A DNA stretch of 64,000 nt from Deferrisoma camini S3R1 (GTDB lineage: Bacteria > Desulfobacterota > Deferrisomatia > Deferrisomatales > Deferrisomataceae), in contig NZ_JAFN01000001.1 of the NCBI RefSeq assembly GCF_000526155.1, forward strand, positions 3,226,264 through 3,290,263, read 5' to 3'. A program made the translations under genes and the position numbers. Shown here piece by piece: positions 2,774-41,476 of the stretch (position 1 is the first letter of the stretch; every line of letters starts with the position of its first letter). The notes under the pieces are model-generated. The model worked only from the letters and a program-made list of their open reading frames with translations, did not search any database and was not told where the DNA came from.

Positions 2774-4639
2774 ATGGCCATGGAAGCGCAGGAGAACCGG
2801 TTTCTGGAGGTGTTGCGCGAGCTCGGCGGAAGGGCCGGGAACGAGGCCTTGCGGGCTCGGCTGGGCTGGAGCTCGGGGCAGTACGAGGCCGTACGCCAGA
2901 TGCTCTTGGACGAGGGAGCGATCCAGAAGGGCCGTGGTCGGGGCGGATCGGTGCGGCTGGCCGGAGGGGAGGCCGCGGAGAAAAAGCCTGACGCTTCCGG
3001 CGAGGGGAGCAAGAAGGCCGGAACCCGCGGCTCGGGGGCCCGCGGGGGGCGTTCGGCGGGCCGGGCAAAGCGGTCCGGCACGAAGAACGGCGCGAACAAC
3101 GGCGCCAACCTCGGCTTCGAGAACAAGCTCTGGGAGATGGCCGACAAGCTGCGCGGCCACATGGACGCCTCGGAGTACAAGCACGTGGTGCTGGGTCTCA
3201 TCTTTCTCAAGTACATCTCCGACGCGTTCCAGGAGAAGTACCAGGAGCTCGAGGCCAAGCGGGAGACCGAGTACACCGATCCGGAGGACCGCGACGAGTA
3301 CCTGGCCGAGAACATCTTCTGGGTGCCGCCCGAGGCCCGCTGGGAGAAGATCCAGGCCGCGGCGCCCCAGCCCACCATCGGCCAGACGATCGACGGGGCC
3401 ATGGCCGCGATCGAGCGGGAGAACCCGAGCCTCAAAGGCGTGCTGCCCAAGGACTACTCCCGCCCCACCCTGGACAAGACCCGCCTGGGCGAGCTCGTGA
3501 AGCTCGTCGGCGACATCGACCTCAAGGCCCGGGAGTCGGGCGTCAAGGACCCGCTGGGCCGGGTGTACGAGTACTTCCTGGGCCGGTTCGCCGCGGCCGA
3601 GGGCAAGGGCGGGGGCGAGTTCTACACGCCCCAGTGCGTGGTGCAGCTCCTCGTCGAGATGATCCAGCCCTACCAGGGCCGGGTGTACGACCCATGCTGC
3701 GGCTCCGGCGGCATGTTCGTGCAGTCCGAGAAGTTCGTGGAGGAGCACGGCGGCCGGCGCGGCGACATCGCCATCTACGGCCAGGAGTCCAACCCCACCA
3801 CCTGGCGCCTGGCCAAGATGAACCTGGCCATCCGCCGCATCGACGCCGACCTGGGGCCGCACCACGCCGACACCTTTCACAACGACCTGCACAAGGACCG
3901 CAAGGCCGACTACCTGCTGGCCAACCCGCCATTCAACATGAGCGACTGGGGCGGCGAGCGGCTCCGGGAAGACCCCCGCTGGCGGTACGGCGTGCCGCCG
4001 GCCAACAACGCCAACTACGCCTGGATCCAGCACTTCATCCACCACCTGGCCCCGAACGGGATCGCCGGCTTCGTCATGGCCAACGGCTCCCTGTCCACCT
4101 CGACCAACGCGGAGTTCGCCATCCGCAAAGGAATCATCGAGGACGACCTGGTGGACTGTATCGTGGCCCTGCCGGGCCAGCTCTTCTACACCACCCAGAT
4201 CCCCGTGAGCCTCTGGTTCGTCACCCGCAGCAAGAAGGCCGACCCCAAGCGCGGCTTTCGCGACCGCGCAGGCGAGACCCTCTTCATCGACGCCCGCCGC
4301 ATGGGCCGGCTGGTGGACCGCGTCCACCGGGAGCTCACACCCGACGAGATCCGGCAGATCGCCGAGGTCTACCACGCCTGGAAAAGGGGTGAAGGCTACG
4401 AGGACAAGCCCGGCTGGTGGAAGTCGGCCACCCTTGAGGAGATCCGCGACCACGGCTACGTGCTCACCCCCGGCCGCTACGTGGGCGCCGAGGAGCAGGA
4501 AGACGACGGCGTGCCGTTCGAGCAGAAGATGGCCGAGCTGACGAAGAAGCTCTCCGAGCAGTTCAACGAGGCGCACCGGTTGGAGAAAACGATCGTGAAG
4601 AACCTGACGACCCTCGGCTTCTGGGAGGGGGAACCGTGA
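2774..4639 (+). CDS. hsdM: Type I restriction-modification DNA methylase subunit HsdM
   Basis: Methylates adenine N6 in the recognition site as part of the HsdM2S methylase and the HsdR2M2S nuclease complex. The 621-residue product has three parts. A small winged-helix-like head covers about residues 4-55 ([20 protein letters not shown]). A Gly/Ser/Lys/Arg-rich linker follows to about 110. The HsdM_N helical bundle and N6_Mtase domain make up the rest. The SAM-binding motif [10 protein letters not shown] is near residue 305 and the catalytic NPPF motif ([14 protein letters not shown]) near 385. The ATG at 2774 has GGAAGG upstream; the frame is open further up but nothing there resembles the family. 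The stop overlaps the next gene by 4 nt. The head and linker are additions to the classical HsdM. Confidence 0.95.
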
Positions 4640-6336
4640 CGCCAGAAGGGTTGGAACGGCTGATCTCCGGCGGCGAGAAGCTGAACGTGGAGTTCAAGGG
4701 CGAGGCGAGGGGGACGCTCAGCGATCGGGACCTGGTCGAGACCGTCGTCTGCTTGGCGAACCGAAGGAGCAGCGAGCCGGCCTGGTTGCTCATCGGGGTG
4801 GAGGACGACGGCCGCGTCACGGGTGCAAGGCCCCGGCACGGGTCCCGGGGAACCGATCCGGCACGCTTGGCCTCGCTGATCGCGGGCCGGACGCGGCCTT
4901 CCCTCGCCGTATCGGTGCGTCTGGTTCCGGTCCAGGGGCGAGACGTGCTGGTCATCGAGATTCCGCCCTGCCGGACGCCGGTGGGCACCGCGGACGGTCG
5001 TTATCTGCGCCGCGCCCTGGGCGGCGACGGCCGCCCCGCCTGTGTTCCGATGCAACCCCACGAGTTCCATTCTCTTTTGTCCGACCGGGGCTTGGAGGAC
5101 TACTCCGCCGCCGTGGTCGCCGGGGCTCGCTGGGAGGATCTGGACCCGCTGGAGTTCGAGCGGTTCCGCCGCACCATCCGGGAACGACGCGGCCGGGGCG
5201 ACGAAACCCTGCTGGACCTCTCGGATCTCGAACTGGCCCGGGCCCTGGGGGCGCTGTGGGCCGACGGCGACGGGGAGGCGATCCGTGTTCTGGGCTTGCT
5301 CCTGTTCGGCAAGGAAGAGGCGTTGCGGCGCCACCTCCCCACCCACGAGGTGGCGTTCCAGGTGCTGCGGCAGCAGGCGGTGGAGGTCAACGACTTCTTT
5401 CGGTGGCCGGTGCTTCGCGTGATGGAAGAGCTGGAAACCCGATTCCGCGCCAAGGTCGGGGAGAAGGAGGTCCTCGTCGGCATGCTGCGGGTGGGCGTGC
5501 CCGACTACCCCCCCGCGGCCTTTCGGGAGGCGGTGGCAAATGCGCTGATCCACCGCGACTACACGCGCCTCGGAGCCGTGCACGTCCAGTGGCACGAAGA
5601 CCGGATCGAGATCTCCAACCCCGGCGGGTTCCCGGAGGGGGTTCGCCTCGACAACCTGCTCGTCACGGCGCCCCGGCCGCGCAACCCCCTGCTGGCCGAC
5701 GCCTTCAAGCGCGCCGGGATCGTGGAGCGCACCGCGCGCGGGATCGATACCATCTTCCACGAGCAGCTCCGGAACGGCCGTCCGGCGCCCTCCTACGACC
5801 GGAGCGACGACACCGGAGTGATCCTGGTGCTTCCGGGCGGCGAAGCGAACCTGGACTTCGTGCGCCTCGTCACGGAAGAAAGCCAGTCAGGGCGGATCCT
5901 GGGGCTGGACCAACTGCTCGTGCTCAATGCCTTGTGGCAGGAGCGCTCCCTGACCACGGGCAGGGCGGCCGCCCTCATCCAAAAACCGGAAGCCGAAGCC
6001 CGAGCGGTCCTCCATCGGTTGGTGGAGGCGGGGCTCGCAGAGAGCCGCGGACAGCGTAAGGGGAGAACCTGGCACCTGTCCGCCGCCACCTATCGCCGCC
6101 TCGGCCAGGAGGCCGCCTACGTCCGGCAGCGCGGTTTCGAGCCCTTTCAGCAGGAGCAGATGGTTTTGCAGTACGTGGAAAAGCACGGGCGCATTACCCG
6201 ACGGGAGGCGGCGGAGTTGTGCCGGATTAGCGGCCCCCAGGCTTACCGGCTTCTCAATCGCCTTGTAAGACAGGGCCGAATCGCTCGCGAGGGCCGTCGC
6301 GGGCGAGGTGTCCGTTATCGGAAAATCACGGATTGA
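4636..6336 (+). CDS. AlbA_2 (Schlafen-like) / HATPase_c_4 protein with winged-helix tail
   Basis: A 566-residue protein starting at a GTG that overlaps the hsdM stop (GTGA). The N-terminus (about 1-140) matches the AlbA_2 domain, with the E-x-EFKG segment and [13 protein letters not shown]. The middle (about 295-395) matches HATPase_c_4, with [14 protein letters not shown], then [11 protein letters not shown] and the late [14 protein letters not shown] helix. The tail has one or two winged-helix units ([17 protein letters not shown]). Proteins of this architecture are annotated as ATP-binding transcriptional regulators or helicase-related and recur in type I loci. Here it is embedded between hsdM and hsdS, so a role in controlling or modifying the system is inferred. 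A fragment of a second copy is at 1399-1486 and of its tail at 6618-6695. Confidence 0.85.
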
Positions 6337-6455
6337 ACGAAACAAATGAACGAACCGCGGACATGAATGCACGCGTGCATTTATTTGCACGGCGCGCATT
6401 TTCGGTCGCACGCGGTCTCCCTAACGGAGCCGCGTCTTCACTCGAGCTGCACTGC

Positions 6456-6612
6456 GGGTGCGGAAGAGGTTGAAGACGACGGCGTGCCGTTTGAGCAGAA
6501 GATGGCCGGGCTGACAAAGAAGCTCCCGAGCAGTTCAGCTAGGCGCGCCGGCTGGAGAAAGCGATCGTGAAGAACCTTACGACCCTCGGCTTCTGGAAGG
6601 GGGAACCGCGAG
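6456..6612 (+). pseudogene. Degenerate duplicate of the hsdM 3' end
   Basis: About 155 bp closely match positions 4488-4640, the last 50 codons of hsdM and its junction with the next gene. Shared words include GACGACGGCGTGCCGTT, GAGCAGAAGATGGCC and CTCGGCTTCTGG. A single-base deletion (CTCCCGAGCAG against CTCTCCGAGCAG) shifts the frame, and a TAG replaces a sense codon shortly after. It has no start and cannot make a methylase. It is a footprint of a tandem duplication or recombination inside the operon. Confidence 0.85.
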
Positions 6613-6617
6613 TCGAA

Positions 6618-6695
6618 TGAACGGCCGCATCACCCGCCGCCGCGAGGTGGCGGAGGTGTGTAGGATCGCTTCCCACCAGGCCCGGGCCTACTGGC
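6618..6695 (+). pseudogene. Remnant of the winged-helix tail of the AlbA_2/HATPase gene
   Basis: Translates as MNGRITRRREVAEVCRIASH and resembles [20 protein letters not shown] from the 3' part of the gene ending at 6336. It directly follows the hsdM-tail copy. The two fragments therefore keep the order hsdM, then AlbA_2/HATPase, but most of the second gene has been deleted. No open reading frame survives. Confidence 0.65.
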
Positions 6696-6809
6696 GCGGC
6701 GGGCTTGAGATGCGCGGAGCCAAGAAATGGACGTCTTATGCGCTGCCTCCAAAGAAAATGGAGGACTCCAAATCAATATGGATGGCTCCCAAATGATCGC
6801 CGACCAACG

Positions 6810-6950
6810 GCCACGGGCTCACCTCCAGGAGTTCAACGTTTTGAGATCACAAAATGTGACCTCAAGGGGGGTCGACGCCATCCGCGAGCTGATGACCCAG
6901 CACGAGCCGGAACCCAAGCGGCGAATCGGGTTCGGGGCGGGTGAGGAAAG

Positions 6951-6954
<4 letters not shown>
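6810..6954 (+). pseudogene. Internally deleted ORF6N-domain protein remnant
   Basis: The frame ending at 6954 carries FNVLRSQNVTSRG fused directly to VDAIRELMT and PEPKRRIGFGAGEER. In ORF6N-domain proteins the LRSQ-VTS segment lies in the N-terminal DNA-binding domain, and DAIR-LM...RRxIGF is the extreme C-terminus. Roughly 100 intervening residues are missing here, which suggests an in-frame internal deletion. The upstream part of the frame (from an ATG at 6727) has no recognisable domain. Its stop overlaps the hsdS start (GTGATG). ORF6N genes are frequent passengers in type I loci. The assignment rests on motif memory, not a search. Confidence 0.5.
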
Positions 6955-8341
<1,387 letters not shown>

Positions 8342-8345
<4 letters not shown>

Positions 8346-9090
8346 ACCAGCGCGGGAATGTCCGCGGAGGCCGGCGCGGGGAGGCAACGCGCCCGGGTGC
8401 CGCGGGCGATCCCCTGATCCCGAAGCACGGCGGCTACCGGAAGCTGAAGAGCTTTCAGGTGGCGCAGCTCATCTACGACGTGACCGTCCGGTTCTGCGAT
8501 CTTTACATCGAACGCCGGAGCCGCACGCGCGACCAGATGGTGCAGGCGGCGCGGTCGGGAACCCAGAACATCGCCGAGGGCTCGGTGGCCTCGGGCACCT
8601 CGAAGAAGATGGAGCTGAAGCTCACACAGGTTGCCCGTGCGAGCTTGGAGGAACTGCGGCTCGACTACGAGGACTTTTTGCGCCAGCGGGAGCTGCCCAA
8701 GCTGGAGCCGAACCATCCGGCGCTGGTGCGGTTCAAGGCGTCGAGGCCCCGCACGTTGGACGAGGTGCGGGCGTGGGTGGCGGAGGAGCGGCGAAGGGCG
8801 ATTCAGGCCGACAAAAGCGACACGGACGAGCACGGACGCTCAAGGACCCGCGCCGGCGCGACGACAAGCGGCGAAGGTCCCGGCGGAGCGTCCGTGTCCG
8901 TCCATGAGGGTCCGTGCGGGCCCCTGCCTTCGGCTTGTCTGGTGGCCAATGCCGCGCTGTCGCTGCTGAACCTGGCTTGCCATCTCCTGGACCGGCAGGT
9001 CGAGCGGCTGGCGCGGGATTTCGAGCGGGAGGGCGGTTTTACGGAGCGTCTCTACCGGCACAGGAAGCGGGCGCAACGGCGGAGCAGGCC

Positions 9091-9094
<4 letters not shown>
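8342..9094 (+). CDS. Four-helix-bundle suffix-domain protein inside the hsd operon
   Basis: A 250-residue protein of the four-helix-bundle (S23/IVP-like) group with the longer suffix arrangement. The core has [57 protein letters not shown] and [20 protein letters not shown]. The C-terminal helix pair is [20 protein letters not shown]. The two helical parts are separated by a 35-residue low-complexity linker encoded by an inverted repeat (8818-8912). The protein is coupled to hsdS and hsdR by 4-nt overlaps at both ends. Function is unknown; related bundles occur in rRNA intervening sequences and as the Avd protein of diversity-generating retroelements, but no reverse transcriptase is present here. 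Confidence 0.8.
8831..8896. repeat. In-frame inverted repeat within the four-helix-bundle gene
   Basis: CACGGACGCTC at 8831-8841 pairs perfectly with GAGCGTCCGTG at 8886-8896 across a 44-nt centre. Weaker complementarity continues outward (GGACACGG-like words on both sides, 8818-8912). It keeps the reading frame and encodes the linker between the two helical parts. Confidence 0.75.
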
Positions 9095-12306
<3,212 letters not shown>

Positions 12307-13573: not shown

Positions 13574-15403
<1,830 letters not shown>

Positions 15404-25629: not shown

Positions 25630-25783
25630 GGGAGACCCTCCGGAGCGGGAAACGTCGGCCCGCCAAAAAGTACCCGTTTCGCTAGGTTTTGCAACCCCTG
25701 CGCTTGACTCGCCCGGCCCGCGCCCTTATGTAGGGGCGGCCCAGCCGCCTAGCGGGCCGAAGGCCCAAACCGGGGCCATTGCC

Positions 25784-25954
25784 GGCGGCGGGGCAGGGGG
25801 TTCAGGAACCGGAATTCAGCGGACAGGAGACAGGGAAGGAACGACAGGCTTGATCCGGCGTCCGACGGCATGCGGTCACAACCTGTCCACTGAAATTCTG
25901 TCTTCTGCCCCCTGATTCGCAGACCCCATGCCCCCGAGCTTTGGTGGGGCCCGG
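25784..25954 (+). repeat. Intergenic repeat family A, subtype A1, copy 1
   Basis: Nearly identical, base for base, to 41222-41392 across about 170 bp, and then onward through module B. The left arm carries CAGGAACCGGAATTCAGCGG and the right arm CCTGTCCACTGAAATTCTG, which are near complements. The core contains GATCCGGCGTCCGACGGCAT. It fills the divergent space between the acyl-CoA synthetase and dnaJ together with module B. 25680-25783 holds only a partial B-like tract. Confidence 0.9.
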
Positions 25955-26030
25955 GAGCCGCCTAGCCGCCTAGCTGCCTAGCGGGCCGAAGGCCCCAGAC
26001 CAACGACCAGCGACCAGCGACCGAAGTTAC
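25955..26030 (+). repeat. Short-period module B before dnaJ
   Basis: Period-8 units (GCCGCCTA, GCCGCCTA, GCTGCCTA), then CGGGCCGAAGGCCCC, then period-7 units (GACCAAC, GACCAGC, GACCAGC) ending CGAAGTTAC, 12 bp before the dnaJ ATG. Confidence 0.85.
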
Positions 26031-41202: not shown

Positions 41203-41221
41203 TGATCCGGGGGCCACGGCT

Positions 41222-41392
41222 GGCGGCGGGGCAGGGGTTTCAGGAACCGGAATTCAGCGGACAGGAGACAGGGAAGGAACGACAGGCTTGATCCGGCGTC
41301 CGACGGCATGCGGTCACAACCTGTCCACTGAAATTCTGTCTTCTGCCCCCTGATTCGCAGACCCCATGCCCCCGAGCTTTGGTGGGGCCCGG
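41222..41392 (+). repeat. Intergenic repeat family A, subtype A1, copy 2
   Basis: Essentially identical to 25784-25954. The alignment of the two copies, extended into the following B tract, shows one substitution near the left end and one extra 8-nt unit (CTGCCTAG) in this copy. Confidence 0.9.
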
Positions 41393-41476
41393 GAGCCGCC
41401 TAGCCGCCTAGCTGCCTAGCTGCCTAGCGGGCCGAAGACCCCCGACCGACGACCAACGACCAACGACCGAAGTTAC
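41393..41476 (+). repeat. Short-period module B before the PP0621-like gene
   Basis: Four period-8 units ending CTAGCGGGCCGAAGACCCCC, then GACCGAC GACCAAC GACCAAC GACCGAAGTTAC, 14 bp before the TTG start at 41491. Confidence 0.85.

Follow-up and report, generated by a model that had tools for sequence, protein, structure and literature searches.

Some integrative elements restore the 3′ end of the gene that they target, and the rlo and mlo genes of Campylobacter sit within hsd loci. In EcoKI, hsdM overlaps hsdS and the two genes are translationally coupled, and a tail duplication has been postulated for the evolution of type IB systems, according to the excerpt of the EcoKI study considered here (PMC3510504). 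The corresponding excerpt on DarTG2 places this system between hsdS and hsdR of a type I restriction-modification operon, together with a repressor, RptR (PMC12255303). Defence operons are known to gather extra genes, and the entry of a gene between overlapping and coupled genes without breaking either of them is rarely visible. Here, we describe an hsd operon of Deferrisoma camini S3R1 in which an accessory gene and the remains of others lie between hsdM and hsdS.

Results

Organization of the operon and of the alb–hsdS gap

The window, that is the whole 64,000-nt stretch analysed, carries on its plus strand hsdM (2774–4639; Pfam N6_Mtase and HsdM_N), an intact accessory gene named here as alb (4636–6336), a gap, hsdS (6987–8345), a gene for a four-helix-bundle protein with a 4helix_suffix domain (8342–9094) and hsdR (9091–12306). 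The presence of hsdM, hsdS and hsdR in a single operon identifies a type I restriction-modification system. The alb gene starts with a GTG codon, overlaps the hsdM stop and encodes SLFN_AlbA_2 and HATPase_c_4 domains followed by a C-terminal winged helix (Pfam PF04326, 1.5e-13; PF13749, 2.2e-18; PF09339, 9.5e-6). From 5′ to 3′, the gap contains an operator-like palindrome, a copy of the hsdM 3′ end (tail A), a winged-helix remnant with operator-like repeats (alb2), an ORF6N remnant and a second trace of an hsdM end (tail B), after which hsdS begins. An earlier sequence-only reading had named the hsdM copy and the winged-helix remnant as the contents of the gap; both were found, but the palindrome, the repeats, the ORF6N remnant and the probable tail B had escaped it. 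The promoter scan of the gap returned no promoter, Rfam reported only two tRNAs over the window, both outside the gap, and Pfam showed no recombinase among the operon proteins, alb being the only gene in the inserted unit of the window. We consider it fairly probable, at roughly 0.7, that the gap is a stack of decayed insertions, and that genes entering between hsdM and hsdS, which overlap, persist when the hsdM 3′ end is retained in duplicate.

Several other features of the window were noticed. The hsdM gene has an N-terminal extension of ~110 residues (2774–3100) with a weak winged-helix match to DUF7343 (E 0.013, below the cut-off). Its leader (2613–2733) is 89% identical to positions 14557–14678 of locus L024 of the same-genus genome G001, where it immediately precedes an hsdM of a very different kind (30% protein identity); the operon body thus seems to have been exchanged behind a leader common to both. 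A second alb fragment lies 5′ of the operon (1385–1492; best at 1400–1487, 92% identical over 88 nt to 5791–5878) and sits within a block (1275–2489) that is 98.2% identical in L024 of G001, and because of this identity the fragment probably predates the species split. Dispersed repeats of ~50–270 nt, up to 94% identical and on both strands, occur between 21658 and 62168 (for example, 25772–26030 and 41210–41476), and no Rfam family was reported at these positions.

A disrupted copy of the hsdM tail precedes a remnant of another accessory gene

Tail A (6456–6611) repeats the last 52 codons of hsdM in broken form. When aligned with its source at 4483–4639, 139 of the 157 aligned positions were identical (~89%), with 17 substitutions and one 1-nt deletion, and the alignment score was 222 against a maximum of 30 in 50 shuffles, confirming the frameshifted hsdM end that had been proposed from the sequence. 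The deletion shifts the frame, a TAG stands in the hsdM frame at 6540–6542, the hsdM stop has changed to CGA, and the copy in the window precedes no working gene. Tail A might still recombine with the intact hsdM, as the earlier reading had it, but the longest run that the two share is only 20 nt, which is short for RecA-dependent exchange. The changes fall on first, second and third codon positions as 6:4:7, a distribution that neither separates coding from non-coding divergence nor dates the event. Tail A is the sole other match to the hsdM 3′ stretch in the 4.24-Mb one-contig genome. Among 26 hsdM genes, that of its own operon ranked first as the closest, which agrees with the claim that a second pair of hsdM end and accessory gene once stood in the gap and decayed. 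A strain with an intact second copy, which the same reading had proposed to look for, was not found among the close relatives: at E ≤ 1e-100, no hsdM of this kind was detected in G001, which lacks this operon and carries only the upstream alb fragment, the contig of G002 ends inside hsdM, and G003 gave weak matches only.

The accessory half of this pair, alb2, is an open frame of 59 aa (6617–6793) that retains the winged-helix end only. Its nucleotide score with the intact alb was 42 (maximum 30 in 500 Markov-shuffled sequences), and a profile of the C-terminal ends of the family detected it with 21 bits; the AlbA_2/HATPase remnant recognised earlier behind the hsdM copy is therefore real. It has diverged much more than the hsdM half (~89% identical), and it matched L073, a gene of another bacterium, with a score of 76 (maximum null 28 in 200). 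The operator-like repeats ATGGAGGACTCC / ATGGATGGCTCC (6756–6789) lie inside the last codons of the remnant; its helix IASHQAR goes with a site of the form ATGGAG..CTCC, and L073, with the same IASHQAR, carries the same type of site.

These relations bear on the simplest alternative, in which the operon's own hsdM end and alb were duplicated in tandem, as had been supposed, and most of the second alb was then lost. Although the gene order is the same and tail A is nearest to its own hsdM, plain tandem duplication is not supported because the accessory half is closer to L073 than to its intact neighbour (76 against 42), with an operator of the L073 type and not that of the present alb, and the scar recurs in many operons. 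Such a mixture could still arise if the winged helix of the present alb had been swapped after the duplication, a course that is possible and needs more steps; we regard tandem duplication as unlikely on the whole.

Behind alb2 lies an internally deleted remnant of an ORF6N-domain gene (about 6829–6953; LRSQNVTS ... IRELM..EPKRRIGF). It resembles the C-terminal ends of ORF6N-type proteins (L106, E 1.8e-4, 74% over 23 residues), and matches to these ends and to an inner motif were found in the ORF6N-like proteins of L098, L106, L108 and L110, both motifs occurring there in the same order. The remnant itself has no Pfam match; a match to PF10543 was obtained with an L098 protein whose sequence was put together partly across frames. 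The plasmid search with the remnant gave chance matches only. Tail B (6959–7003) is a weak trace of an hsdM-tail/hsdS-start junction (6.8 bits), with E 0.39 over the whole 64-kb window, and its score was reached in none of 5000 shuffles of the 115 nt around it; the hsdS start thus probably bears a further remnant of an hsdM tail. The likely start of hsdS is the ATG at 6987 (MGGEWR, compared with MAGEWR elsewhere) rather than that at 6951.

Displaced hsdM tails recur in related operons

A scan of GTDB genomes yielded 47 loci with alb relatives from many phyla, 25 of which have a recognisable hsdM directly upstream and, with the window, make a set of 26 operons. A nucleotide model that was trained only on seven operons where hsdM runs straight into hsdS, and scanned over 561 kb, detected a displaced hsdM-tail copy 3′ of alb in 19 of these 26 (E ≤ 0.1). 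A protein model of hsdM ends, applied to the 1200 nt after alb at a threshold of 6.0 bits, the maximum among 268 control stretches, found copies in 14/26 including the window. Either model detected a copy in 22 of the 26, a count that is not of independent events, L041, L044 and L048 being near relatives, as are L039 and L042. The hsdM-tail scar is not a one-off, as the same scar occurs in most related operons. Neither model found a copy in L039, L044, L059 or L068, the contig of L068 ending 258 nt after alb. Since alb in L059 follows an intact hsdM end (LGYGE and stop) with no copy, tail duplication is not obligatory. Three of the 21 loci without a recognised hsdM had matches (18 had none); that of L034 lies at its hsdM end, while those of L055 and L073 are displaced copies with no hsdM recognised upstream.

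The hsdM genes proper usually matched only model positions 1 to ~61, ending where operons without alb continue into the hsdS start, and the copies downstream of alb mostly matched on through the hsdS ATG. The left edge of the insertion was near the LG(F/Y) codon of hsdM in most loci, and the start of the displaced copy varied. Among 38 loci without alb, seven of which form the training set of the nucleotide model, an extra tail copy was present in six at E ≤ 0.01 (L111, L119, L121, L125, L135 and L141); therefore, in many cases an accessory gene has entered and left no copy that can be detected. Neither plasmids nor viral contigs supplied alb relatives for a held-out set, and a scan by phylum gave L163–L174, of which L163 and L164 repeat earlier loci and the others have no hsdM upstream. 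As a separate observation, the hsdM of L030 (227–3274) is broken near residue 492 by ~540 nt; a further 3′ fragment of hsdM lies upstream of it, and sequence around 732–918 of this locus recurs at 5289–5475.

Copies were also found stacked. L117 has three, preceding a nucleotidyltransferase gene, another nucleotidyltransferase gene and hsdS, in the order hsdM, alb, two operator types, tail, nucleotidyltransferase, HepT-like, tail, nucleotidyltransferase, HepT-like, tail and hsdS; the first nucleotidyltransferase/HepT-like pair was confirmed by Pfam and the second was named by its likeness to the first. Two copies each occur in L046, L066 and L121, the last having no alb. In operons of another, unrelated type, in which alb comes after the helicase gene and whose genes we take from sequence motifs to encode a helicase and a methyltransferase, the 3′ end of the helicase gene is copied downstream of alb, with 98.9% identity over 88 nt in L036, where the copy runs into the start of a new gene, and 91.8% over 110 nt in L057.

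Most displaced copies contain a Shine-Dalgarno motif and an ATG for the gene that follows

In most cases, the ATG of the next gene sits within the copy after a Shine-Dalgarno motif, and such a motif was found just 5′ of the ATG in 17 of 18 displaced copies; the ATG itself, present in 18/18, is no evidence because the copies were picked partly for an ORF start there. Among these 18 copies, conservation is 0.72 far upstream and peaks at 0.95 in the Shine-Dalgarno zone, whereas in hsdM proper it drops from 0.85 upstream to 0.78 in that zone. In the relatives without alb, the hsdM 3′ end also carries a Shine-Dalgarno motif and the overlapping ATG of hsdS. From this pattern, and from the overlap and coupling of the two genes in EcoKI, we infer that the following gene retains the displaced copy as its start region.

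The pattern also bears on a second alternative, that a piece of a foreign hsdM–alb2 operon recombined into the gap with no relation to start signals, the tail being debris only. The foreign affinity of alb2 and the broken state of tail A, which starts no gene, would fit this, but tail A ranks its own hsdM first, and in relatives the copies run up to the start codon of the following gene, with conservation at the start signals; we hold it to be somewhat less likely still than tandem duplication. That the tails are gene-converted or convergent coding ends, alike through similar hsdS starts and not duplicates, is very improbable: in many loci the displaced copy is indeed closer to the tail of another locus than to its own, but the similarity spans some 55 nt 5′ of the hsdS ATG, where hsdM codons would have no reason to be, and every nucleotide-model match at E ≤ 1 in the 561 kb lies on the plus strand, either at an hsdM end or further 3′ of hsdM.

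Operator-like palindromes behind alb vary with the recognition helix

Just after the alb stop of the window is the operator-like palindrome AATGCACGCGTGCATT (6366–6381), of the ATGCAC type, the half-site of which recurs to about 6401. Palindromes at this place were enriched, with a score of at least 8 in 25 of 47 loci against 3 of 423 control windows inside alb; in this set of 47, L061 (alb cut by the contig end) and L074 (weak match) had been dropped and the window and L026 added. The type of palindrome tracked the recognition helix but not the remainder of the protein (Mantel r 0.61, partial r 0.60, p 0.0002, n = 41, half-sites chosen by eye); half-sites had been entered for 42/47 loci, leaving out L036, L053, L064, L072 and L073, and L068 was dropped. 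Because these half-sites were picked by eye, the test was repeated blind with k-mers, which gave a partial r of 0.436 (p 0.0005, n = 39; 39 of 43 listed loci, the rest being without 400 nt downstream or a 10-residue helix). The blind signal dropped to 0.13 at +80 to +172, and nothing was seen in two regions tested past +200. As the palindrome varies with the recognition helix, alb is predicted to be a winged-helix autoregulator with a candidate operator at the 3′ end of its own gene.

Operators of a second type were found behind the present one in L039, L042, L043, L117 and L165, with two types each in L043 and L117. These other-type operators therefore suggest serial replacement, in which the winged helix would have been exchanged together with its putative operator. 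L165, a helicase-type operon, has a run of three distinct operator types after a single alb gene (3186–3320).

Discussion

The observed parts of our explanation are the recurring scar, the directly joined junctions of operons without alb, the stacking of copies, their altered conservation and the foreign affinity of alb2. We propose that an entering gene would be tolerated between hsdM and hsdS provided that two copies of the hsdM 3′ end result, one of which completes hsdM while the other stays before the next gene. In the simplest order that the sequences allow, alb2 with its own operator and the ORF6N gene would have arrived first; the present alb would have entered later at the hsdM end and pushed alb2 downstream, leaving tail A before it. 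The alb2 gene, the ORF6N gene and tail A would then have decayed, making tail A a dead layer presumably older than the present alb, while displaced tails elsewhere may have been kept because they start hsdS translation. Insertion may have occurred by a homologous exchange on one side, within hsdM, and an illegitimate joining at the right end, or alternatively by unequal exchange between tail copies.

More tentatively, and with somewhat less than even confidence, the hsdM/hsdS junction may be a layered gene-acceptance slot in which hsdM 3′-end copies lie between each incoming gene and the next and act as portable translation starts, so that the order of layers is the order of acquisition, and in which alb genes exchange their winged helix together with the operator that fits it, older operators staying in place. 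The question of how a gene enters between coupled genes would have a simple answer in these scars, namely that the end of the upstream gene is kept twice, and past occupants of the slot could be read through them from sequence alone. The pairing of winged-helix recognition helices with candidate operators across phyla would make a protein–DNA code testable. Our literature searches among open-licence papers turned up no title or abstract beginning that describes copied hsdM ends before hsdS or operators at the 3′ end of AlbA_2 genes.

As in the operon described here, the Campylobacter rlo and mlo genes are extra genes inside hsd loci, and we know of no tail copies in them. The 3′-restoring integrative elements likewise have the 3′ end of the target gene on both sides of the insert, but no integrase and no clearly fixed attachment site were seen here. 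The DarTG2/RptR operon shares with the present one an extra defence gene inside the operon and small palindromic regulator sites, whereas its RptR sites are in the promoter and its insert lies between hsdS and hsdR, and the excerpt of that paper does not mention copied gene ends (PMC12255303). In EcoKI, as described in the excerpt, the hsdM 3′ end overlaps the hsdS start as it does here; that account treats one uninterrupted hsdM/hsdS pair (PMC3510504), whereas in the operons described here tail copying accompanies the insertion of genes between hsdM and hsdS.
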